Position numbers and translations under genes: made by a program. DNA of 50,521 bases from Roseiflexus sp. (lineage in GTDB: Bacteria > Chloroflexota > Chloroflexia > Chloroflexales > Roseiflexaceae): the NCBI GenBank assembly GCA_017743475.1, contig JAGHYV010000032.1, forward strand, positions 1-50,521, in the 5' to 3' direction. The notes under the pieces were generated by a model. That model did no database searches. It worked only from the letters and a program-made list of their open reading frames with translations, and was not told the DNA's origin. Numbering within the stretch: position 1 is the stretch's first letter; every line of letters begins with the position of its first letter. This document shows positions 28,251-41,059 of this stretch, piece by piece.

Positions 28251-28344
28251 ACACGGATTGGCACGGATGTGACGGATCGACACGGATGTTATTTATTTTA
28301 TCCGTGATTATCCGTAGCATCCGTGCACATCCGTGGTTAATCCG
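28251..28344. repeat. Inverted CACGGAT / ATCCGTG repeat array
   Basis: Four CACGGAT-type units at 28251-28289 are followed by an AT-rich turn (TTATTTATTTTA) and four ATCCGTG-type units at 28301-28344. The whole can fold into a long imperfect hairpin. It lies between two convergent genes and overlaps the stop codon at 28337, so it may act as a bidirectional terminator. Confidence 0.75.
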
Positions 28345-30349
28345 ACGCAGCGGCAATTGTCTGCTCGACTTCCTTCCGTAGGAGCCTGATCGCATCATTG
28401 GCTGTCTTTTCGGCGGCGAGCAGTTCATTCAGGCGGTCTTCCAGTTCGTTGAGCAGCGTCACGTAGCGTTGCCGCAGTTTCATCTCGTTGCCCTCACGCC
28501 CCAGCGGCGTCAGGTTCGCCTGCGTCTGCTTCTGGCGCTCGTAGATCTTCTGCCGCTCCGCATCGATCTCTCTCAGTTCGTCTTCGTGGCGTTCAATCTG
28601 CTCGTAGAGCGACAATAACCGGTTGAGCACGGCGAAGGTCTGTTTGTCCAGGTGCGTCTCCTCAAAGAATTGCTGAATCTGGCGCTGCGAGAGTTTGCGC
28701 ACCTCTTCGTAGCGCGATACCCTGTGGCGCTGGCTGACCGTAAAGGTCGTTTCGACTCCCGGCAGGCAGCGCACGGTCCAGCGCGCGACGTTGTGCGCCT
28801 GTTCCGTCGGCGGCGGCGTATCGAACAGGTCGTAGCCAGGAAGCATGTCGTGTTCGATCACAATATCGACGGCATTGGGCAGGCTGCTAGTCACCCGATA
28901 CAGCGTCCGTCGGATGTCCCATTCTTCGAACAGCAGGTACTCCTGATGCAGGCTCAACCCTGCCATCTGGCGTTCGGTGCGGTATTCCTCGCTGATCCTG
29001 ATGCCGAGTTCAACCGCGTAGGCAACAATCATTTCGGCGCCTGCGCGCGTGAATGGCAGCACCGCTTCACCGGCGTAGTCCCCCCGCTCGACGACCGTCA
29101 CCGGACCGCGTTCCAGGGTCAGACCGGTTTCATTCAGCATCCGCAGACTGGCGACAGGGTAATGCGGCTGTTTGCGACCGTTGTAGAGCAGTTCCTTGCG
29201 TCCGTCCAGGCGTCGGTTGACAATTGGTACCATTGCCGAACGTCCGCGTGCAACGCTGATCGGATGCGCCACGCGGTACTGGAACAACGCGCCGCGCTCT
29301 TCGCCAATGCCGACCGACGGCGCCGAATGTTCGACTTCATCGAGGCTGAGACCGAGATCGGCCGAGGAATAGAGTGACCTGGCATCGCTTTCCGCTGCGC
29401 CTGGAAATGCCATGCTGCGCGATCTCCCTCTGGCAGCGCCGGGGGCGGGCGGTGCGCTCTGCGCCGCAAACTCGATTGGCGCGGCGACGATGCGCTCATC
29501 GTCCTGCACCAGCGGGCGCTCGGGAGTGCGCGGCTCGTATAAACGGTAGCGGAATGAGACTGGCATACCTGCCACCAGGGTCAGTTCAACGTCTTCCAGG
29601 TCCTCATCGAGTTGATTGTCGAACATTCCCCACCCCTGCAACAGCACCGTCACCCGCTCGCCCGCGCTGTGTCCGTCGCCGTTCGACGGATCGCCATCAA
29701 CGATCTTTGGCTCAGCCAGCAGGCGGTAACTGACGCGCCAGGCGGGCGCAGGCGCGATGTATCCGATCAGGAGATCGTGCTCACCCTCGGAGAGGCGAAC
29801 GATTGCTGCCCGGCGATCCTCCTTGCTCTGTGCTGCGCGCAGGAAGTAGCTCATATCCGAAGCAGCGCGATCATCCAAGATTACCATGCGCGTAATACGC
29901 TTCACCGGTATACTGCGCACTTCGCGCTGCTCCGCCATGTACAGCGAGACCAGCGGGCGGTCGAGCGGCTCGTTCTCATCGACGTCGATACCGATCACTG
30001 CTCCTTCAACGGTTTCCTCACTCTGCGCTTCGTGGCGACGCTCAGGGTCAATCCACAAACGCACCTGTCGTCCGCGTAGGTCGCGCAACAGATCAAGCAG
30101 GCTGCGCGTGTCGGACAGGTGGATCGAACCGCGTTTGATCTGCGCTTCGCGGTCTTCCGGCGTCTCAAAATCGATGCCGCGCACATACCCCGCTCCGAGA
30201 TCGAGCACAATCAGGCTTTTGAGAATATCGTCCATCGCGGCGCGCGGGAAGGTCAGGCGCAGTTCGGCGCCGGTGATCGAACCGCGTCGCTCAAAATAGC
30301 CGACACCGTGCCGGTAGACCAGCATCCGGCGAATAGGGAGATCAGGCAT
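28337..30349 (-). CDS. DUF4139-like protein with C-terminal coiled coil
   Basis: The 670-residue protein is soluble with no signal peptide. The N-terminal part (PIRRMLVYRHGVGYFERRGSI) and the central segment (LDEDLEDVELTLVAGMP, then VSFRYRLY) resemble the beta-rich, elongated DUF4139 group. The C-terminal about 90 residues (LYEQIERHEDELREIDAERQ onward) form a predicted coiled coil. The function is unknown. I chose ATG 30349 (MPDLPIRR); an upstream frame of 34 residues is compositionally unlike the protein. It is on the same strand as the kinase gene but separated by 343 bp containing two repeat elements, so it is probably a separate transcription unit. Confidence 0.65.
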   Translation of the reverse strand: MPDLPIRRMLVYRHGVGYFERRGSITGAELRLTFPRAAMDDILKSLIVLDLGAGYVRGIDFETPEDREAQIKRGSIHLSDTRSLLDLLRDLRGRQVRLWIDPERRHEAQSEETVEGAVIGIDVDENEPLDRPLVSLYMAEQREVRSIPVKRITRMVILDDRAASDMSYFLRAAQSKEDRRAAIVRLSEGEHDLLIGYIAPAPAWRVSYRLLAEPKIVDGDPSNGDGHSAGERVTVLLQGWGMFDNQLDEDLEDVELTLVAGMPVSFRYRLYEPRTPERPLVQDDERIVAAPIEFAAQSAPPAPGAARGRSRSMAFPGAAESDARSLYSSADLGLSLDEVEHSAPSVGIGEERGALFQYRVAHPISVARGRSAMVPIVNRRLDGRKELLYNGRKQPHYPVASLRMLNETGLTLERGPVTVVERGDYAGEAVLPFTRAGAEMIVAYAVELGIRISEEYRTERQMAGLSLHQEYLLFEEWDIRRTLYRVTSSLPNAVDIVIEHDMLPGYDLFDTPPPTEQAHNVARWTVRCLPGVETTFTVSQRHRVSRYEEVRKLSQRQIQQFFEETHLDKQTFAVLNRLLSLYEQIERHEDELREIDAERQKIYERQKQTQANLTPLGREGNEMKLRQRYVTLLNELEDRLNELLAAEKTANDAIRLLRKEVEQTIAAASD

Positions 30350-30477
30350 GGTTTTCTCGCTTTCCAGAAAATTGGCGCCTCGGCGTGAGGCGTCCCATGG
30401 GGTGAGTATAGCAGCAAATGCACTGGCTGTCATCCGCGACGAATTGCACATCTACAGACGTGAGCGCATCAATAGTC

Positions 30478-30692: not shown

Positions 30693-32762
30693 TCACATCA
30701 TCAACAGCGCCAGTGCAATCGCCAGCACGATAGTCAGACTGGTCGCTGTCAGCGCGGCGATCCGATCCCAGTTCAGGAAGCGCCGATCATCGGGGAGGAG
30801 ACGCTCGAAGCCGTAGATGTACCAGCGGTAGAGCGTCGGTTCGCACTTCTGCGCAGTGCGCCCGCGCTGTTGCGGCTTCGTCCATTCGTCAAGGTCGAAG
30901 ACGATTTCAGTGACGGGAATAAAACTGATTGTCAGTTCGCTCAGAATAATGCGCGTGTCGGGATTCAGGCGTTCTTCCGCCCGTTTGATTAGACCATCGA
31001 CCCCTGCGACCGATCGCCATTCGGGGCGAAATCCTTCGTTCGCCTGCTCGCGGTAGACCTCGCGCTTGCGGCAGTTGCGTTGCAGCCACGCTTCATTGAT
31101 GCCAGGCAGATCGTCATGGGCGGTCAGGAGATCTGCCCGGCGCAGCCAGTGAAAGGTTTTGTGAATGATCAGGCGACTGACGCCATCGCAGCGTGTGCAG
31201 TGGATACCGCCCGTGCCCTGACAGTCGGGGCACGGAATGAGCGTCGGCGCTGCGGCGACCTCTGGTTGGGTCGCGACGGCAGCCTGTGCCGCGTCTGGCG
31301 TTCTGGTCGATGCAGCCGGCGAGGTATGGCGCTTGCGTCTGTCTGCTGCGACGGCAGCCTGTGCGACACTAGGCGCTTCATTCGAGACAGCCGGGGGAGA
31401 TAGAGCAGGGATACGCCGACGACCGTTGCACCGCGCGCAGATCGTCCGTCCGATCCCTTTGCACGTATCGCACTGAACGACCCGTGTTGAACCGGGGATG
31501 CGCACCACGCCCCCTGCTTCATTCTCGAACCCTCTAGGAGGGGGGAGCGGCACCTCCCACCGATCGAGTTCACGTTCCAGTTTGTTGTCCTTATAGTAGT
31601 GATGATCCGGTTCTTCTACGGTTTGCACTGGTTCGCGCGTTTCGTACAGAACACGCAGGGTGTACCAGTAGATGTTGCGGTGCGTCGTCTGCCGTATCTC
31701 CGCCAGGCGCCCCAGTGATGGACGACGCAGTAGCGGTCGCGCCCGGCTCCACGCATTCAGCAAATCAGCAATCGCACGCGGATCGCTGAGTTCTTTCGCC
31801 CGCTCGAGCGCATCCTGCATTGGCGCTTTGATCAGGTCAGCTGCCAGTACCTTTTCAACGGCGTGCGACGCTTCTGGCGGCATTGGCGAAATCGGAGCTG
31901 CAGCGGGGGGTATGCCGATGGCAACCTGGGTTGTGCTGGAGTGACGCCGCAGCACCTGGTCGAGCGCATCGGCAGCTGCCCGGGCGCCAGGGTACCGTTT
32001 TGCCGGTTCGAGCGCCAGCATGGTACGAATAATATCGTCGACCTCAGCGGGCACGCCAGTAACCCCACGATCACGCAGCGACATCGGCGGCGCAAACGGT
32101 CCACCACCCTCGCCCAAACCAGGCGTGTACGTCCACGGCAAGGCACCAGCAAGCATCACGAACAGCACGACACCCAGGCTGTAGATGTCGGAGAGATGGG
32201 TCACGGCAGTGGCCGACACAGCGTGTTCGGGTGAAAGGAACCCTGGCGTGCCCATCACTTTGTTGACGGTCGTCATCCGTGTCTTGCCCGATTCGCGGGC
32301 GATGCCGAAATCGGAAAGGAGCACCCGCCTACCGTCGCCCTCGACAAGAATGTTGCCGGTCGAAATATCGCGGTGAACGACGCCATGCGCATGGGCGTAA
32401 TCGAGCGCAGCAGCAGCGCAGCGAAAGATATGCGCCGCCAGGTCAAGCGGCAAACGCCCGCGCTGGTCGAGCAGGTCACGCAGTGATCCGCCCTCGACAT
32501 ACTCCATGACGGTGTAGTGAAAGGGCGCCTGATACCCGTGGTCGTAGATCGGTACAATATGTTCATGGCGCAGTTGACTGGTGATCTCTGCCTCGCGGGT
32601 GAAGCGGTCAATCCATTCGGTGTCCTGCGACAACAGGATTTTGATCGCCGCCCGACGTTCGCGCAGTACGCGATGACGCGCCAGCCAGACCTGGCTCATC
32701 CCGCCTTTGCCGATCTGTCGCTCCAGACGGTAGTTGCCGATCCATTCAGGAAAGGTGCTCAT
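30693..32762 (-). CDS. Tail-anchored Ser/Thr-type protein kinase with DnaJ-like zinc fingers
   Basis: The 689-residue protein has an N-terminal Hanks-type kinase domain: glycine loop GKGGMSQV (18-25), K41, catalytic D132 and N137 in HRDISTGNIL, and D151 in DFG. The catalytic-loop Lys usual in Ser/Thr kinases (HRDLKPxN) is Ser134 here. The middle region has two pairs of CxxC(x)G motifs (CDTCKGIGRTICARC and CPDCQGTGGIHCTRC), DnaJ zinc-finger-like, separated by an Ala/Pro-rich linker. A single hydrophobic helix at the extreme C terminus (SLTIVLAIALALLMM) makes it tail-anchored, the reverse of the usual PknB topology. Its start overlaps the ptsI stop region by 4 bp (ATGA), so translation is coupled to EI of the PTS. 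The start at 32762 directly precedes the kinase domain; the frame upstream overlaps ptsI and is not used. Confidence 0.88.
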   Translation of the reverse strand: MSTFPEWIGNYRLERQIGKGGMSQVWLARHRVLRERRAAIKILLSQDTEWIDRFTREAEITSQLRHEHIVPIYDHGYQAPFHYTVMEYVEGGSLRDLLDQRGRLPLDLAAHIFRCAAAALDYAHAHGVVHRDISTGNILVEGDGRRVLLSDFGIARESGKTRMTTVNKVMGTPGFLSPEHAVSATAVTHLSDIYSLGVVLFVMLAGALPWTYTPGLGEGGGPFAPPMSLRDRGVTGVPAEVDDIIRTMLALEPAKRYPGARAAADALDQVLRRHSSTTQVAIGIPPAAAPISPMPPEASHAVEKVLAADLIKAPMQDALERAKELSDPRAIADLLNAWSRARPLLRRPSLGRLAEIRQTTHRNIYWYTLRVLYETREPVQTVEEPDHHYYKDNKLERELDRWEVPLPPPRGFENEAGGVVRIPGSTRVVQCDTCKGIGRTICARCNGRRRIPALSPPAVSNEAPSVAQAAVAADRRKRHTSPAASTRTPDAAQAAVATQPEVAAAPTLIPCPDCQGTGGIHCTRCDGVSRLIIHKTFHWLRRADLLTAHDDLPGINEAWLQRNCRKREVYREQANEGFRPEWRSVAGVDGLIKRAEERLNPDTRIILSELTISFIPVTEIVFDLDEWTKPQQRGRTAQKCEPTLYRWYIYGFERLLPDDRRFLNWDRIAALTATSLTIVLAIALALLMM

Positions 32763-34429
32763 ATGTAGATATTCAGCACGGAGCGCGCTGCGGCGCGCGC
32801 CTCCGCCAGGGCGGTTTCGCTGAGACGCTCCTTGACCCCAGAAATACTCGCCGGATTCATGCTCAACTGAAACACGCCGAGTCCGACCAGGAGCGTCGCC
32901 AGTTCCGGGATGCCAGCAATCTCGCCGCAGACACACACTGGCAGATGGGCGCGCGCTGCAGCGCCAGCAGTCTGCGCGATCAGCCGCAGCACAGCAGCAG
33001 AGTGCTGCGGATAGCGAGTCGAAATATCGGCGCTGGTACGGTCAGCAGCGAGCGTATACTGCGCTAGATCGTTGCTGCCAATACTGAAGAATGCCGCCTC
33101 GCGCGCGATTAGGTCGGCGGTTACCGCCGCAGCTGGCGTTTCGATCATAACGCCGACCGGCACATCAGCGCGGTGTGGGATCTGATCACGCGCGAGCGAC
33201 TCGGCAGCAGCGCGGATCTGTGCCCGCGCCCACGTCACCTCGTCGGGGATTGTGATCATGGGAAGCAGGATCCGCAGGTCGCCATGAACCGCCGCCCGGA
33301 GCATCGCACGGATCTGGGTCTGGAACAGATCGGGGTGAAGCATCGAGAGACGCACCCCACGAATACCGAGCGAAGGATTGAGTTCGTGCGGCAGTTCGAG
33401 ATACTCCACCCGCTTATCACCGCCGATGTCCAGCGTGCGAATAATGACTGCCTGCCCTTTCATGGTTTCCAGCACCGTCCGATATGCTTCGTACTGCTCC
33501 TGCTCATCGGGTGGCGCATTGCGTCCCATGAACAGAAACTCGGTACGAAACAGTCCGATCCCCTCTGCCCCCCGTTCAAGCGCGATACGCGCCTCCAGCG
33601 GGTGGCTGATATTCGCCCAGATCGTTACCAGTTCGCCGCTTGCCATGCGTCCCGGTTGATCATGCAGGGGATGGTGCCGCACTCGCGCCGCAATCGTTCC
33701 CGAAGCGCGCCGTTCATACGCCGACCACTCAAACGTATCGGGGTCGACGATCACCAGAGCAGCGTGTCCGTCGAGCACCAGCGGCGCATTATCAGGGATC
33801 GCCAGGGTTGCGGCGCCCAAACCGACGACTGCCGGAATGCCGAAGGCGCGCGCCAGGATCGTTGTGTGACTGTTCGGTCCACCCTCAGCAGTGACAAACC
33901 CGGCGACACGCCCATCGCGCAGGCTGACCGCCTCGGCGGGGGTTAGGTCATTGGTGACCAAGATCGCGCCAATGGGGAGATCGTGCATATGGCGCGCCTC
34001 ACCGCGAAGCGCGGTCAGGATCGCGCGGCGCACATTGTCGATGTCGCTGGAACGTTCGCGCAGGTAGGGGTCATCAATCGCTTCGATGGTTTCGCGCAGC
34101 GCGCTAATGGCAACCGTCAATGCCTGTTCCAGGCTGACATGACCTTCCTGCATGCGCCGTGCCACGTCCTGCGTCAGAGTCTCATCTTCGACAAGCAGCG
34201 CGTGGGCATCGAAGATGCGCGCTTCCTCCAGGCGTCCCTCTTCACGCAGGATCGCTGCCAGCGTCCGAAGTTGACCGGCAGCCGTTGCCTGGGCGGCAAC
34301 GAGTCGCCTGATTGCCGCATCGACGTCAACATCGATCACGTGCCAGGCGTGATGGTCAGGCAGGTAACGCACTGCCCGTCCAAGCGCCACTCCCGGTGAA
34401 CCGCCAGCGCCACGCAGGTAAATTGCCAT
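32759..34429 (-). CDS. ptsI: PTS enzyme I (phosphoenolpyruvate-protein phosphotransferase)
   Basis: The 556-residue enzyme transfers phosphate from PEP to HPr. The phospho-His H188 is in EGGPNSHTTILAR. The PEP-binding barrel follows, with EGIGLFRTEFLFM and the C-terminal VCVCGEIAG motif with its catalytic Cys. It starts one base after the ptsH stop and its own stop overlaps the kinase start, so ptsH, ptsI and the kinase form a tight unit. No EIIABC sugar permease is in the cluster, so the PTS proteins probably serve DhaM only. Confidence 0.95.
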   Translation of the reverse strand: MAIYLRGAGGSPGVALGRAVRYLPDHHAWHVIDVDVDAAIRRLVAAQATAAGQLRTLAAILREEGRLEEARIFDAHALLVEDETLTQDVARRMQEGHVSLEQALTVAISALRETIEAIDDPYLRERSSDIDNVRRAILTALRGEARHMHDLPIGAILVTNDLTPAEAVSLRDGRVAGFVTAEGGPNSHTTILARAFGIPAVVGLGAATLAIPDNAPLVLDGHAALVIVDPDTFEWSAYERRASGTIAARVRHHPLHDQPGRMASGELVTIWANISHPLEARIALERGAEGIGLFRTEFLFMGRNAPPDEQEQYEAYRTVLETMKGQAVIIRTLDIGGDKRVEYLELPHELNPSLGIRGVRLSMLHPDLFQTQIRAMLRAAVHGDLRILLPMITIPDEVTWARAQIRAAAESLARDQIPHRADVPVGVMIETPAAAVTADLIAREAAFFSIGSNDLAQYTLAADRTSADISTRYPQHSAAVLRLIAQTAGAAARAHLPVCVCGEIAGIPELATLLVGLGVFQLSMNPASISGVKERLSETALAEARAAARSVLNIYI

Positions 34430-34711
34430 TTATTCCTCGGTTGCGAGTTGGTCCAGTAATGCAGCCAGCGCTGCTACCGCCTCACGTTCATCCTCACCCT
34501 CGGCGCGGATCAAGATCTGATGCCCCTGAGCAGCGCCAAGTTGCAGCAGATTCAACAGGCTGACCGGAAGTTCAGCCGAAGATCGCCGTGTAACGTTACG
34601 CACTGTGATACGACTGCGAAATTCGCGTGTTTTGCGATAGAAGTCGGCTGCCGGGCGAGCATGCAGCCCTAACGGATGTCGTATTCTGACCAGACGCTCT
34701 TCCATACACAT
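34430..34711 (-). CDS. ptsH: Phosphocarrier protein HPr
   Basis: The 93-residue protein has the active His in LGLHARPAA (H17 from the 34711 start), phosphorylated by EI. A Ser at residue 51 (PVSLLNLLQLGA) aligns with the regulatory Ser46 of HPr proteins; the preceding Lys of the usual KS motif is Val here. An alternative start at 34705 (MEERLV) is equally possible. It lies 46 bp after dhaM and abuts ptsI. Confidence 0.93.
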   Translation of the reverse strand: MCMEERLVRIRHPLGLHARPAADFYRKTREFRSRITVRNVTRRSSAELPVSLLNLLQLGAAQGHQILIRAEGEDEREAVAALAALLDQLATEE

Positions 34712-34757: not shown

Positions 34758-35165
34758 CTACGGATGACTCGTCCAGCGTTCCTGAACTTTCACCAGATCG
34801 CGCCCGCGCAACGCGGCTGCAGCAGTTTCTTCCAGGGTGGCGCCAACCGATGCCTCGACAGCGGCGAAGTAGGCACCTTCCACCAGCGGCGCGTTGCTGA
34901 TAACAACACGCATTTGCGGCTCGTCTTCGAGCACGGCTTCAACGCTCAGCGCGGCGCTCACGAAATCGACCAGTACCAGGACGCCGTCGCTGCTGGCAAT
35001 CTGCCGCAGACCCTGACGAATAGCATCGGTGCTGATTCCTAGCGATCCATCTACTGCGCCGCCGACTGCGACGATCGGCACCTGCCCGCGGGTCACCTGT
35101 TCGGTAAACTCTTTCACGCCGCTAGCGAGACGTTCGCTGTGAGCAACGATCAACAGACCAACCAT
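34758..35165 (-). CDS. dhaM: Dihydroxyacetone kinase phosphotransfer subunit DhaM
   Basis: The 135-residue protein is the EIIA-mannose-like subunit that takes phosphate from HPr and passes it to DhaL-bound ADP. The phospho-His H9 (VGLLIVAHSERLASG) and the segment IVAVGGAVDGSLGISTDAI are typical. Only the EIIA domain is present; the HPr and EI-like domains of E. coli DhaM are absent, in keeping with separate ptsH and ptsI genes next door. It follows glpC after 5 bp. Confidence 0.92.
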   Translation of the reverse strand: MVGLLIVAHSERLASGVKEFTEQVTRGQVPIVAVGGAVDGSLGISTDAIRQGLRQIASSDGVLVLVDFVSAALSVEAVLEDEPQMRVVISNAPLVEGAYFAAVEASVGATLEETAAAALRGRDLVKVQERWTSHP

Positions 35166-35170
35166 ACTAC

Positions 35171-36412
35171 TTACGTCGCGAGACCATACGCTTCAGCGAG
35201 GATTTCGATAGGATGGCGCGCTGTGACTCCGGCGCCGTGGCTGATCTGCCAGCGGCACGTCTCCGAGTCGCACAGCGCCATCGTGAACCCTGAACGGCGC
35301 ACCATGTCAAACAGCGGTGCGCCAACGTCCATACTGATCTGATACTTCTCGGCTTTCAGCCCATATGTCCCGGCGATACCGCAACAACTGGCATGGGTTT
35401 CGATTAGCCGCAACCCTGGAACGAGTTCCAGCACATCGAGTGCCGGGAGCCCGATGCGGTGCGCACGTAACTGGCATGGCGGATGATACGGCAGGGTGCG
35501 TTCAATAGGACGAAAGTCAGTCCGCAACTCGCCTCGTTCGTGCAGCATACGCAAAAACTCGAAGATGTCATATGTCTGCCGGGCTACGGCGCGCACGGTG
35601 TCGTTCTGCATACCGAGCAGTTCTGGCGCTTCTTCTTTGAGTGTCAGGGTACAACTGGTGCTGGCGCCGACGATGGGAATGTTGCGCAATGCGTAGGGTG
35701 CCAGAAACGCGATGTTTGCCTCGTGTGCGCGACGCGCGGCGGCGAAGTCGCCGTTCGAGAGTAGTGGCAGACCACAGCAGCGCTGATCCGGCAGCAGCAC
35801 CTCGAATCCGTTGTGTTCAAGCACAGCAACCACTGCTTTGCCGATCCATGGTTCGTAGTAGTTGGCTGCACACCCATGGAAATAGACGACCTGTCCTTTC
35901 GTGGCAACCGGCTGGACAATGCGCCGACGCCGGAACCAGGATCGAAACGTTGACCGGCTGAATAGCGGGAGTGGCGCTTCCCGCGCGATCCCTAACGTCT
36001 GTTCAATAATGACCCGCAATGGCTTGAAACTGAGCGCCGCATTCGCCAGCGGCGCCTGCGGTCCCGCTCCCAGACGCCCAATCAACTCTGAGCGACTGAT
36101 CAACCAGTTGCGCAGCGGTATGCCGCGCTCCGCTACCAGACGCGCCCGCGCGCGCGCGTTCAGTTCCGCAATCCGAACGCCGGTCGGGCATACCTCGTTG
36201 CACACGCGGCATCCTGAGCAGTAGTCTACCGACTCGTCAGGAGACGGTTGACGGTCATGCCGGAAGCGTTGCGCCTGCGGACCGACATACTTGGGTCCGG
36301 GGAAAAGGTCGGTCACTGCGCTGACCGGGCATGCCGCAGTGCAGATGTTGCACTTGATGCAATGGTCGAGCGATTGTTCGAGGGAATGCTCAATATGATC
36401 CACTGGTATCAT
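35171..36412 (-). CDS. glpC: Anaerobic glycerol-3-phosphate dehydrogenase subunit C
   Basis: The 413-residue iron-sulphur subunit carries two ferredoxin-type clusters (CIKCNICTAACP and CSGCRVCNEVCP, residues about 18-75) and two CCG motifs (CCGLPL near residue 213 and CCGIAGTYG near 343) that resemble the heterodisulphide reductase/GlpC quinone-linked module. It passes electrons from GlpAB to the membrane quinone pool. The gene overlaps glpB by 4 bp. Confidence 0.93.
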   Translation of the reverse strand: MIPVDHIEHSLEQSLDHCIKCNICTAACPVSAVTDLFPGPKYVGPQAQRFRHDRQPSPDESVDYCSGCRVCNEVCPTGVRIAELNARARARLVAERGIPLRNWLISRSELIGRLGAGPQAPLANAALSFKPLRVIIEQTLGIAREAPLPLFSRSTFRSWFRRRRIVQPVATKGQVVYFHGCAANYYEPWIGKAVVAVLEHNGFEVLLPDQRCCGLPLLSNGDFAAARRAHEANIAFLAPYALRNIPIVGASTSCTLTLKEEAPELLGMQNDTVRAVARQTYDIFEFLRMLHERGELRTDFRPIERTLPYHPPCQLRAHRIGLPALDVLELVPGLRLIETHASCCGIAGTYGLKAEKYQISMDVGAPLFDMVRRSGFTMALCDSETCRWQISHGAGVTARHPIEILAEAYGLAT

Positions 36413-37653
36413 AATGCGTTTCCTGCCAGTATGCGTCCTGCTGCCCAGCCAGTAGCGATTGAAACACCGCTGCGACTGCGTTCGCGAACAGTATCGGTTG
36501 CTCCAAGCGTTGCGCCAGCAACGGCGACATTAGTGTAGACCGGTTCACCGTGCATGTCGATTGGTCGGAGACATGGATCGACTGGAACGCCAGCAGTGTA
36601 AATCGCATGCCCTGCTGGATCGAGGAAACGCGGTGAAAACCAGTCAGCACGGTTTGCCGGTGCACGCACCGGCAGATCGAGAGCGGTTTCGCGAATGATA
36701 CCCATATGGTCGGCGCGGATGCCACCACCTGCAATCCCGCCAGTCGCCAGCAGCAGGCGCTCGACTCGGTGCTCCTGATGACGCGCTGCCGCTTCGCTCC
36801 AGACGGCGATAAGCCGACGTTCTTCACCGTGACCGCGAAGAACTTCTGAGCCGATCTGAAACCGTCCACCAGAATGTTCAATCGCATCGCGCAGGATGGT
36901 GAACAGCCGCATACCGGGAACCGATGGCGGCAACGTTGGTATCTCAAACACCTGCGCGCCGCTGGCATGCTGAAGATCGGCGACCACGCCGAGCGGATCG
37001 CGCAAACCAAGGATAGCTGGCAGCCCGATCCGCGTTGCCGATCCACGCTGCGCACGAAGTTGTCTTCCGATCTCCGCCCGAAATGCCGGGTCGTCGAACA
37101 TACGCGCAAGGATGACCGTCGTATATTCGCGTCGGCGGAATGCAGCGGGGATGGTCAGGTACACGCCGCGCGCCGCTACTCCCTGAGCTACGAGGTTGGC
37201 AGCGATGAACAGCGGATAGAAATCGCGCAATTCGCGGAACCCGGCAATCAGCATCTCTCCGCCCAGGCGAACATCACCGGCGGCCATCGTCACTGGCAGC
37301 AACGCAACCGGGCGCAACGCACCTGCTGCCGTGGGAAGCAGTACATTGCGCTCCAATCCGCCAACGTAGGGATAGCGGGCTGCTTCGGTCAGCGCACAGA
37401 AGCGAGCGATTGCCTCTTCAACGGCGCGTGCGCCGATCAGCGCATACGGGTGCTGCGGATGTGTCGCGCCGATCTCGTGGATCGCCCGACGTGGCGTGCG
37501 TTCATCGGCGCCCCAGACATCGACAGTTCCGGCAGTCCAGTGGGTCGCCCCCTGCCCCTTCGCCAGCACTAGCGGTTGCAATCCTGCCTCTGCTAGCGCC
37601 AGAGCGCCCATCAAGCCGCTCAAGCCGGCGCCGATTACGAGTGTGGTGCGCAT
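36409..37653 (-). CDS. glpB: Anaerobic glycerol-3-phosphate dehydrogenase subunit B
   Basis: The 414-residue flavoprotein subunit starts with the FAD-binding motif VIGAGLSGLMGALALAEAG and ends in a C-terminal FAD segment with GWAAGRILAGN. The pattern of GlpB, including ATGGIAGGGI near residue 300, is clear. It lies between glpA (15-bp gap) and glpC (4-bp overlap), the same order as in E. coli glpABC. Confidence 0.9.
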   Translation of the reverse strand: MRTTLVIGAGLSGLMGALALAEAGLQPLVLAKGQGATHWTAGTVDVWGADERTPRRAIHEIGATHPQHPYALIGARAVEEAIARFCALTEAARYPYVGGLERNVLLPTAAGALRPVALLPVTMAAGDVRLGGEMLIAGFRELRDFYPLFIAANLVAQGVAARGVYLTIPAAFRRREYTTVILARMFDDPAFRAEIGRQLRAQRGSATRIGLPAILGLRDPLGVVADLQHASGAQVFEIPTLPPSVPGMRLFTILRDAIEHSGGRFQIGSEVLRGHGEERRLIAVWSEAAARHQEHRVERLLLATGGIAGGGIRADHMGIIRETALDLPVRAPANRADWFSPRFLDPAGHAIYTAGVPVDPCLRPIDMHGEPVYTNVAVAGATLGATDTVRERSRSGVSIATGWAAGRILAGNAL

Positions 37654-37668
37654 ATTGCTCCCCTATTG

Positions 37669-39348
37669 TCACACGATCGCCGCAATCACAATATCGCGCG
37701 ACGCCTCAATCGTCGCATCTGTAGTCTCTGGCAAACGATCAACTGCCAGCGTTTCCAGGTAGTTCAACTCGTTGAGGCGCTCCTGGCGGAGTTGATCGCC
37801 CCACAGCGTCGGCGTGACGCCTTTCCAGCGTTCTTGCAGGAAGTGTGTGAGCAATGCCGACGCAGGCGGTGCACTGGCAGCCTGCTGCGCGGGCAGATGC
37901 TGGTTGCGGAGTTCGTGCCAGATCGCCGCAGCGCGATAGGTGCAGAATCCACCCTGGCATGGACCCATTCCAAGACGCGTATCGCGGCGCAGATCGTCGA
38001 GATTGGCAGTGCCCTCGCTCTGGATTGCCGCCTCGAGTTGGGCGCGGGTGACGAGTTCGCATTCGCAGATCAGATCGCCATAACTATCGTCCGCCTCGAC
38101 TTCCGCCAGTCGATGCCCCAGCATATAGAATGGCGATGTCAGAATGGCAAACCGTGCACGTGCGCGGCGATTCTGATTGGGTACGGCACCGTGGTGCAGC
38201 GCTTCGATAGGCAGATCCGCCGTTCGACACGGCACGGTCACCCCAAGTTTGGCTGCAACCAGATCAACGGTTTTCTCCGCCATCAGGCGATACGTGGTCC
38301 ACTTTCCGCCAACTACGCTGACCATCCCGGCGACCCCATCGCGCGTTTCATGATCGAGCAGTTTGTATGTGCGAGGAATATCACGGTTGCTGCCAGCGTC
38401 ATTTTCCTTATACAATGGGCGAACCCCTGCCCATGCTCGCAGAGCGCGCATGCGACTCACACCGGGAACGAGCCATTCGCCTTCTTTCAGGATCAGATCA
38501 ACCTCTTCCGGGGTAATATCGTACACATCTGGATCGGGAACCGGTATATCGGTCGTTCCGAGCACGGCAACCGTATGGATAGGCACGATAATGTCGCCGT
38601 CCGCTGGCATCTTGCAGCGGTTCACTACCGTATTAACGATCCGATGATTCATGGCGATCATTGTTCCCTTACCGGGAACGATGCTGATGCGCAGACTGGC
38701 AAGCTCTGCGATCTTCCCTGCCCAGGCCCCGGTTGCGTTGATGATGAAACTGGCATGGATGCGTACCGTTTCACCGCTTCGCAGATCTTCGCACACTGCG
38801 CCAATAATCCGGTCTGCCATACGCTCCAGTTCAACAACGCGGTGATACGTTAGCACCTGCGCGCCATAGCGCCGTGCATCATACGCATTGGCGTGGGTGG
38901 CGAGGAATGAGTCGGCGGCACCATCACGTACCGCGAATGCCCGCCTGATACGCGGGTTGAGCAACGGTTCGCGTCGAAGCGCCTCGCGCACTGGTATCTC
39001 TTCTACCCAAACGCCAGTGCGTCGGCAGGCAGCGACAAACTGATCGGCAAAGGCTTCATCGTCTGCCGGAGTTACGACGAACAACCCGCCGGTTTCTTCG
39101 ATGCAGTGCGGTATAATCCGGCGCAGGATCTCATTCTCGCGCGCACATTCCTCCGCCGATTGCGGGTCTTTCACCACATAGCGCCCGCCGGAGTGCAGCA
39201 ACCCGTGATAGCGCCCCGTCGTGCCGTGCGTCAGGTCGCCCTTCTCGACCAGGGCGCAGCGAATGCCGCGCAGCGCCAGATCGCGCAGGACACCCGTTCC
39301 GGTTGCGCCTCCGCCAATGACCAGAACATCTGTCGTCAGTGTACGCAT
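37669..39348 (-). CDS. glpA: Anaerobic glycerol-3-phosphate dehydrogenase subunit A
   Basis: The 559-residue catalytic flavoprotein oxidises glycerol-3-phosphate to dihydroxyacetone phosphate. The FAD motif VLVIGGGATGTGVLRDLALR and the family box KGDLTHGTTGRYHGLLHSGG are near the N terminus. The C terminus carries a BFD-type iron-sulphur module (ICECELVT and CQGGFC). ATG 39348 is preferred; an upstream ATG at 39363 would add five residues. dhaL lies 21 bp upstream. Confidence 0.94.
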   Translation of the reverse strand: MRTLTTDVLVIGGGATGTGVLRDLALRGIRCALVEKGDLTHGTTGRYHGLLHSGGRYVVKDPQSAEECARENEILRRIIPHCIEETGGLFVVTPADDEAFADQFVAACRRTGVWVEEIPVREALRREPLLNPRIRRAFAVRDGAADSFLATHANAYDARRYGAQVLTYHRVVELERMADRIIGAVCEDLRSGETVRIHASFIINATGAWAGKIAELASLRISIVPGKGTMIAMNHRIVNTVVNRCKMPADGDIIVPIHTVAVLGTTDIPVPDPDVYDITPEEVDLILKEGEWLVPGVSRMRALRAWAGVRPLYKENDAGSNRDIPRTYKLLDHETRDGVAGMVSVVGGKWTTYRLMAEKTVDLVAAKLGVTVPCRTADLPIEALHHGAVPNQNRRARARFAILTSPFYMLGHRLAEVEADDSYGDLICECELVTRAQLEAAIQSEGTANLDDLRRDTRLGMGPCQGGFCTYRAAAIWHELRNQHLPAQQAASAPPASALLTHFLQERWKGVTPTLWGDQLRQERLNELNYLETLAVDRLPETTDATIEASRDIVIAAIV

Positions 39349-39369: not shown

Positions 39370-40035
39370 CTATGGGTTCTGCGTCTCTGGAGTCCTAGCT
39401 GGCAGATCGTCATCGAGACCAACCATCGCGCGGGCGATGTAGTATGCGGAGGTTGCGCCAGGATCCTGATGCCCGATGCTACGCGGACCAAGGAACGCTG
39501 CACGACCTTTGGTCGCCTGCATTGGGATTGTTGCACGCATGCCCTCTTCAACAGCGGCAAGCGCAATGCGTGCCGCTTCTTCAAGCGAATTTCCGTTCAT
39601 GATGGCATTACGAAACGTTTCAACCCCCGGCGCAATCGCATCGAGCATCGTTTTCTCGCCGCGCTGCACCCGACCGCGTTCCACAATGCCTTCAAGTGCC
39701 ACTTCGAGCGCCGCGGCAATGTCTTTTCCGTCAATAACTGATCGTCCGGCAAGCAGCGCTCCGGCGCGCCGAAATGCTGTTCCGTACAGCGGACCGGCCG
39801 CACCGCCGACAGTCGCCAGGAGAGTCTTCCCGGTCATATCAAGGATAGTGCCAATATCGCTCTCCTGAAATGCATCAAGTTTGACAACCACTGCCGAGAA
39901 GCCGCGATTCAGATTGGTGCCGTGGTCTGCATCGCCAATTACGGTATCAAGTTCCGTTAATTCGGCTGCATGGTCACGGATCAGCGCGGCAGCGCGCTCG
40001 ATAAAGCGGATGACATGGTCAACGGTGATCTGCAT
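39370..40035 (-). CDS. dhaL: Dihydroxyacetone kinase subunit DhaL
   Basis: The 221-residue ADP-binding subunit carries the three Mg-coordinating Asp residues (D30, D35, D37) in LDTVIGDADHGTNLNRG and the typical GGAAGPLYGTAF segment near residue 76. DhaL accepts phosphate from DhaM and donates it to DHA bound to DhaK. It appears intact although its partner gene dhaK directly upstream is broken, so it must work with another DhaK or be idle. Confidence 0.93.
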   Translation of the reverse strand: MQITVDHVIRFIERAAALIRDHAAELTELDTVIGDADHGTNLNRGFSAVVVKLDAFQESDIGTILDMTGKTLLATVGGAAGPLYGTAFRRAGALLAGRSVIDGKDIAAALEVALEGIVERGRVQRGEKTMLDAIAPGVETFRNAIMNGNSLEEAARIALAAVEEGMRATIPMQATKGRAAFLGPRSIGHQDPGATSAYYIARAMVGLDDDLPARTPETQNP

Positions 40036-40121
40036 CCGGGAAGCCTCCAGATAAACATTTCCTCACAAGTGCGTGTTGTACGGACCGCAATCAATCGATG
40101 GCATCAGGGCTTCGTACTGAA

Positions 40122-41059
40122 CTATATTCCCCGACGCAACGCCGGTGTCTATGCCGGAGCATCTCATAACCGCAGTAATTCATCGTCAAGACGAGTCAAT
40201 GTTACCGTGCATCCAGCCATGTTAAGCGACGTCATCTAACCACCCAGACTTCACTCGATCATGATGTTGTGGCGTTGAATGCGATAATACAACTCAATGT
40301 ATGGAGTTGCGCCTAACCCACTAAGACGGCCCCCGATCCTCGGCACGCAGGTGCAGAAAGATCGGCGCACAGGCGATCAACTATCTGAGAAACCGGCGCA
40401 GGCGTACTCTGTTGCCGGCCTGCTTCACCGGATGCCGATGCCAATCTCGATCTCGTGGTCGTCCAGACGAAAGGACGGACGGGCGAGAGATGGCACGGTG
40501 CAGGCGGAGAGTGCATCGCCGACGGAGCAACTCTGGCTGGCTGCGTGGTGCGCAATCCGGCGCACTCTTCGAGTGAGGCGCCTATCTCTGCAGCCGTACT
40601 GGCGATTTTCTCTACAATCACAGTGGCGCCGGTGCCGCGACGCAGTTCTTTTGCTGGACCTGGAATCTCATTGGCCACAATGACCGTTGCAACTAGTATA
40701 CCCTCGGCATTGATTATCTCGATAGCGGTCTTGAACCGACCGCCAGCATAGTTTCTGATAACGTACAGAATGCCTGCGTCGCCAGTGGCTTCGCGAGTGG
40801 CCACCAGAGTCCGATCTGGCGTCGGCGATGTGAAAATGGCGCCAGGACAGGCAGCAGTCAGCATCCCTCGCACGACATACCCGATATGCATTGGTTCGTG
40901 TCCGCTGCCGCCGCTCACGACCACAATCCGGTCGCAGAGTGGTGCATCGGCACGAATGACATAATCCGGGTTGCGTCGCACACGGATCAGTTCTGGATGG
41001 GCGCAAGCCAGTCCATCAAGCGCATCGGACACAAGCGTATCGGGTATATTGATGAGCAT
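40122..41059 (-). pseudogene. dhaK: Decayed dihydroxyacetone kinase subunit DhaK
   Basis: The frame is intact from the start (MLINIPDTLVSDALDGLACA) through VVSGGSGHEPMHIGYVVRGM and IVEKIASTAAEIGASLEEC, then breaks. Around 40545 a frameshift moves to SVGDALSACTVPSLARPSF. At GIGI the usual HGE, containing the His that binds DHA covalently, is destroyed by an apparent 2-base deletion, after which the first frame resumes (EAGRQQSTPAP). About 20-30 codons further on the sequence degenerates and some codons are missing. The C-terminal part MTSLNMAGCTVTLTRLDDEL is found again at about 40190-40250 in another frame with two in-frame stops, ending at 40122. Total span, 938 bp, is close to an intact gene (about 1 kb), so this is point decay, not truncation. 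Confidence 0.85.

Follow-up and report, generated by a model that had tools for sequence, protein, structure and literature searches.

In the DhaKLM relay, phosphoryl groups pass from PEP to EI, HPr, DhaM and DhaL in turn, and in E. coli DhaM is a fused protein with the order DhaM–HPr–EI. Among kinases, B. subtilis PrkC has HPr listed as one of its targets (PMC6213207); the primary reference for this activity seems to be Pietack 2010, cited in PMC4574613. For the locus described here, the original prediction was that a Hanks-type kinase encoded behind ptsI might act on HPr or EI, which would be a new kind of PTS control; given the PrkC precedent, such control would not be entirely without parallel. 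Searches of the literature for a Chloroflexi kinase of like build, and for a DHA kinase in Roseiflexus, returned nothing relevant.

The dha–glp–PTS operon and its junction with the kinase gene

The locus lies in a 50,521-nucleotide stretch of Roseiflexus sp. DNA, which was analysed as a whole and is called the window below. Its PTS is a dihydroxyacetone phosphorelay, encoded in the order dhaK–dhaL–glpA–glpB–glpC–dhaM–HPr–EI–kinase. The upstream dha and glp genes, unmentioned in the original prediction, define the role of this PTS. The genes are:

40110..41059 (end approximate), minus strand: dhaK pseudogene, with several indels relative to the intact copy in a relative (G009)
39370..40032, minus strand: DhaL (TIGR02365, 232.7 bits; cut-off 138.3)
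37669..39348, minus strand: GlpA (TIGR03377, over cut-off)
36409..37653, minus strand: GlpB (TIGR03378, over cut-off)
35171..36412, minus strand: GlpC (TIGR03379, over cut-off)
34758..35165, minus strand: DhaM-type EIIA, the phosphoryl donor subunit of DHA kinase (PF03610, 80.4 bits)
34430..34711, minus strand: HPr (ptsH), with His17 and Ser51 present (TIGR01003, 70.6 bits; cut-off 47.9)
32759..34429, minus strand: EI (ptsI), 556 aa (TIGR01417, 478.9 bits; cut-off 341.7)
30693..32762, minus strand: Hanks-type kinase, 689 aa, called kinase A here (ORF call and domain search)

From dhaL onward the run is compact, with spacings of −4 to 46 nt; the DhaM-type protein scored 97.0 bits against the DhaM model TIGR02364, whose cut-off is 98.25. 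The end of HPr abuts the start of EI (34430/34429), and the kinase ATG (32762–32760) shares the sequence ATGA with the EI stop, confirming that the kinase overlaps the end of ptsI by 4 bp and that the pair follows directly behind ptsH. Scans for promoters and terminators found few sites, in numbers close to those in shuffled sequences, and these sites were left aside. On the other side, kinase A is adjoined by a 671-aa protein without a Pfam family (28337–30352, minus strand), which is 95% identical in G009 and is not found beside the kinase in other members of the genus.

The DHA relay adjoins the genes for anaerobic glycerol-3-phosphate dehydrogenase (glpABC), and both routes lead to DHAP. 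The PTS_EIIC permease family (PF02378), which was our search for EIIC, is absent from this genome, and the only further HPr and the only further EI are both located in a second DHA cluster on contig C102 (glpF–dhaK–dhaL–glpK plus an 856-aa fused EIIA–HPr–EI; L123, 5476–12772). By its gene content and this PF02378 search, the PTS of the window is a DHA-specific relay and not a sugar PTS. DhaK is intact in G009 and in the C102 cluster. Because dhaK carries indels in this strain, the window relay is perhaps left without an acceptor of its own and might rely on the DhaK of the second cluster.

Domains of kinase A and its degenerate paralogue

The features of the predicted kinase are:

31992..32732, minus strand: protein kinase domain, residues 11–257 (PF00069, E 1.5e-43), with K41, E57, D132, N137 and D151 kept
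32352..32375, minus strand: catalytic loop HRDISTGN, with Ser at the position that is usually Lys in Ser/Thr kinases
31428..31472, minus strand: first double CxxC pair (C431, C434, C442, C445), putative zinc site, invariant in 56/56 homologues
31188..31232, minus strand: second double CxxC pair (C511, C514, C522, C525), putative zinc site, invariant in 56/56 homologues
30696..30761, minus strand: C-terminal hydrophobic tail anchor, about residues 668–689 (hydropathy)

By sequence, the presence of a kinase domain is certain: the PF00069 score of 149.6 bits, against a curated cut-off of 31.7, places kinase A among the Hanks-type kinases. The ATP Lys, helix-C Glu, HRD Asp, catalytic Asn and DFG Asp are conserved across 37 orthologues (K41 in 36 of them, the remaining one having a gap), and kinase A is presumably active. 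Two residues after the HRD Asp, the same 37 orthologues have Ser (30), Ala (4), Thr (2) or Asn (1), and none has Lys. The model for PASTA kinases, NF033483, matched over the kinase part only (237.7 bits versus 450), indicating that kinase A is not of the PASTA type. Its best solved relatives are PknA and PknB.

The strongest hydrophobic stretch of kinase A is formed by the last ~22 residues (mean hydropathy 2.35 over 19 residues, lying 3 residues short of the C terminus). This stretch is a helix in the structure model (block pLDDT about 77–92), and a comparable C-terminal anchor is found in 43 of 44 homologues, bearing out the tail anchor that had been proposed. By contrast, the proposed “reverse topology” reduces to this tail anchor, because, as in PknB, the protein begins with its kinase domain on the cytoplasmic side, and almost nothing lies outside.

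DnaJ-like CxxC zinc fingers had been suggested as well. The four CxxC pairs are real and, being invariant in 56/56 homologues, are not due to chance; the linker between the two double pairs is variable. The likeness to DnaJ, by contrast, stays below threshold: the DnaJ central domain PF00684 scored 18.8 bits (cut-off 32.7), the match to the BSD2-type Cys-rich domain PF25436 was also under its curated cut-off, and the domain search found no J domain. The eight invariant cysteines are consistent with zinc binding. AlphaFold2 models of the C-terminal half, made for four sequences, were poor (mean pLDDT 55), and a fold assignment for this half was rejected, as the fold search gave chance matches only (best E 0.16).

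Most genomes of the order that have this kinase family hold two paralogues. The second, paralogue B, has the same C-terminal half, with eight cysteines and an anchor, and a degenerate kinase domain (loci L034–L039 and L151–L162); in the genome of the window (G000) it appears to be split across two contig ends (C135:3–569 and C85:3390–3524). Because the ATP Lys (K41), the helix-C Glu (E57) and the DFG Asp (D151) are lost in 19/19 copies read, paralogue B looks like a pseudokinase, which may be a partner of kinase A.

Distribution of the kinase family and of its link with EI

To describe the survey, we denote the genus of the window g1, a sister genus g5, and the families of its order f1–f4. A profile of the C-terminal half was searched against 158 genomes of the class, in which gene calls for relatives were mechanical open reading frames. 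The kinase family was found in 78 of the 158 genomes, and matches were confined to one order (f1–f4); in a sample of the phylum the other matches were weak and partial, covering ~120 model positions. A single-protein search with the kinase returned five loci only, one of them in Roseiflexus sp. SKYG45. EI (PF05524) was present in 73/158 genomes, and 58 genomes had both proteins according to the kinase and EI survey tables.

EI and the kinase are directly adjacent in seven genomes, comprising 6/6 of the genus, each with the ATGA junction, and one g5 genome with a short gap; in all seven the join is kept despite a rearranged downstream flank. In 51 of the 58 genomes with both proteins, they are not directly adjacent. 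One of these, G014, has an opposite-strand ORF between the two genes, and in the remaining genomes they are on different contigs or more than 100 kb apart, which is indicative only where a genome is fragmented. In the g4 genome G004, a glpABC–dhaM–HPr–EI block has no kinase match behind it on a contig that extends about 1.3 kb past EI. Kinases without any EI match were found, for example, in G015, G017, G023 and G075. Conservation of the ptsI–kinase linkage holds for the genus and one g5 genome and was not seen in most relatives: the link is genuine, though of recent origin and confined to this clade. A service of the kinase to the PTS is not supported, given the orthologues in genomes without EI, the 51/58 non-adjacent cases and the G004 block without a detected kinase.

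A dedicated control of the PTS, in which kinase A phosphorylates HPr (at Ser51) or EI, gates the flow to DhaM and DhaL and replaces HprK, has to be weighed against this distribution. Alignment confirmed that HPr keeps a serine, Ser51, at the Ser46-equivalent position, which we take to be the equivalent of the regulatory Ser46. The 4-bp overlap in 6/6 genus genomes, the close spacing in g5, the presence of Ser51 and the PrkC–HPr precedent in B. subtilis (PMC6213207) all speak for such control. So does the lack of hprK: the absence first noticed in the window extends to the genome, which has zero matches to PF07475 (Hpr_kinase_C), and none was above the cut-off in 26 family genomes (this one and 25 relatives). 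But Ser is also found at this position in HPrs unlinked to the kinase, with Thr in one related f2 genus, so that conservation of Ser51 was rejected as evidence for HPr phosphorylation. As hprK is also missing from unlinked relatives, its absence does not mark a vacancy filled by kinase A. Together with the orthologues that lack any EI, the non-adjacency in most genomes with both proteins, the g4 operon without a detected kinase and the dead dhaK of this strain, these points make a dedicated PTS control quite improbable. HPr or EI as a substrate of kinase A is possible but unsupported.

In the kinase tree, f1, f2, f3 and f4 each group together, and this match with taxonomy indicates that the protein was vertically inherited while its neighbours changed. 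In f2, kinase A commonly follows a galE-like epimerase gene, near EPSP synthase (aroA), an FHA regulator and another kinase; one example of this conserved block (L106, 765–9794) consists of a divergent kinase, the FHA regulator, EPSP synthase, the epimerase and kinase A. In g2, kinase A stands alone. The orthologue of Chloroflexus-like relatives lies apart from their PTS genes; genus g12 of f2 is presumably Chloroflexus. Two g9 genomes (L031, 9058–13327, and L032) have kinase A behind glpK and a gene for an SMP-30 lactonase, and in L031, the g9 genome inspected in detail, the kinase is coupled by a GTGA overlap.

The g9 arrangement, in which kinase A is last in a glpK–SMP30–kinase run as it is last in the dha–glp operon of g1 and g5, hints that in the Roseiflexus family the kinase might regulate glycerol and triose-phosphate metabolism by acting on glycerol, DHA and glycerol-3-phosphate enzymes, the PTS being one part of its range. 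We consider this unlikely, as the contexts are two only and were picked after the fact, the link is absent in f2–f4, in g2 and on the short g4 contig, and the g9 kinases are divergent (35–36% identity).

A pure bystander is also unlikely. According to this explanation, the operon fusion arose by chance, has no regulatory meaning even at the level of expression and was kept only since the kinase no longer had a promoter and a ribosome site to itself. In this genome no evident Shine–Dalgarno sequence precedes the kinase start, a break would silence the kinase, and the linkage arose in one clade while the context of the kinase varies. Against this, the join is retained throughout the genus despite downstream rearrangement, and the phylum may commonly use starts without a Shine–Dalgarno sequence.

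Probable capture of a general kinase by a metabolic operon

Instead of being dedicated to switching the DHA pathway, kinase A probably serves in general signalling, because nearly every member of the order carries it elsewhere than behind the DHA operon, often without those genes. Our preferred reading, to which we give a probability of about 0.6, is that a general core kinase was captured by the DHA operon in the Roseiflexus clade, so that its expression became coupled to that operon. According to this reading, an active, cytoplasm-facing and tail-anchored kinase with an eight-cysteine, DnaJ-like putative zinc module would belong to a core family of the order that works in general signalling on general substrates, probably alongside the pseudokinase paralogue. 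Its gene would have become, in the Roseiflexus lineage, the last cistron of the dha–glp–PTS operon, through which dihydroxyacetone and glycerol-3-phosphate would be turned into DHAP. Transcription of the kinase would then be driven by the operon through co-transcription, and translation would probably proceed by termination–reinitiation at the ATGA overlap.

Capture of a general kinase is favoured by the order-wide spread, the tree that follows taxonomy, the EI-free genomes, the lineage-specific contexts, the restriction of adjacency to g1 and g5, the compactness of the operon, and the catalytic residues that orthologues keep and the paralogue has lost. Counting against it are the missing catalytic-loop Lys, the GTGA coupling in the g9 glycerol-kinase operon, which hints at a glycerol/triose link, and the EI–kinase join kept across g1 and g5; since that join was retained through rearrangement of the flank, it leaves room for a real role in glycerol or DHA metabolism. 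A bolder extension, in which kinase A and its paralogue form a conserved membrane-tethered pair that senses redox state or zinc through matching eight-cysteine modules, and in which operon capture in Roseiflexus placed dihydroxyacetone and glycerol phosphoryl flow under their control, with HPr or EI among the proteins phosphorylated on Ser/Thr in bacteria without HprK, seems highly improbable. If kinase A did act on HPr or EI, a eukaryotic-like kinase would be standing in for HprK where that enzyme is missing. With a kinase older than, and independent of, its neighbour, the tight gene overlap is a poor guide to function, and the more general target for study is the order-wide kinase–pseudokinase pair with its cytoplasmic cysteine module.

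Compared with described systems, the operon resembles DhaKLM with EI and HPr in that dhaK, dhaL, dhaM, HPr and EI occur together, with the DhaM–HPr–EI order of the E. coli fusion; it differs in that the Roseiflexus genes are split, glpABC is inserted, the kinase is added last and dhaK is broken in this strain. With HprK, kinase A would share only the proposed target, Ser46 of HPr; its fold is unrelated, and HprK was not found above the cut-off in this genome or its family relatives. The cysteine module has the four CxxC-type pairs of the DnaJ CxxCxGxG (PF00684) and BSD2-type (PF25436) domains, but in each half the two pairs have a spacing of 11 residues, and a long variable linker separates the halves. 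Kinase A shares with PknB/PrkC-type kinases the N-terminal cytoplasmic kinase domain, the ATP/Mg residues and a single membrane anchor. Unlike them, it is without PASTA or another extracellular sensor, carries a putative zinc-type module on the cytoplasmic side together with a tail anchor, and has Ser in place of the catalytic-loop Lys.
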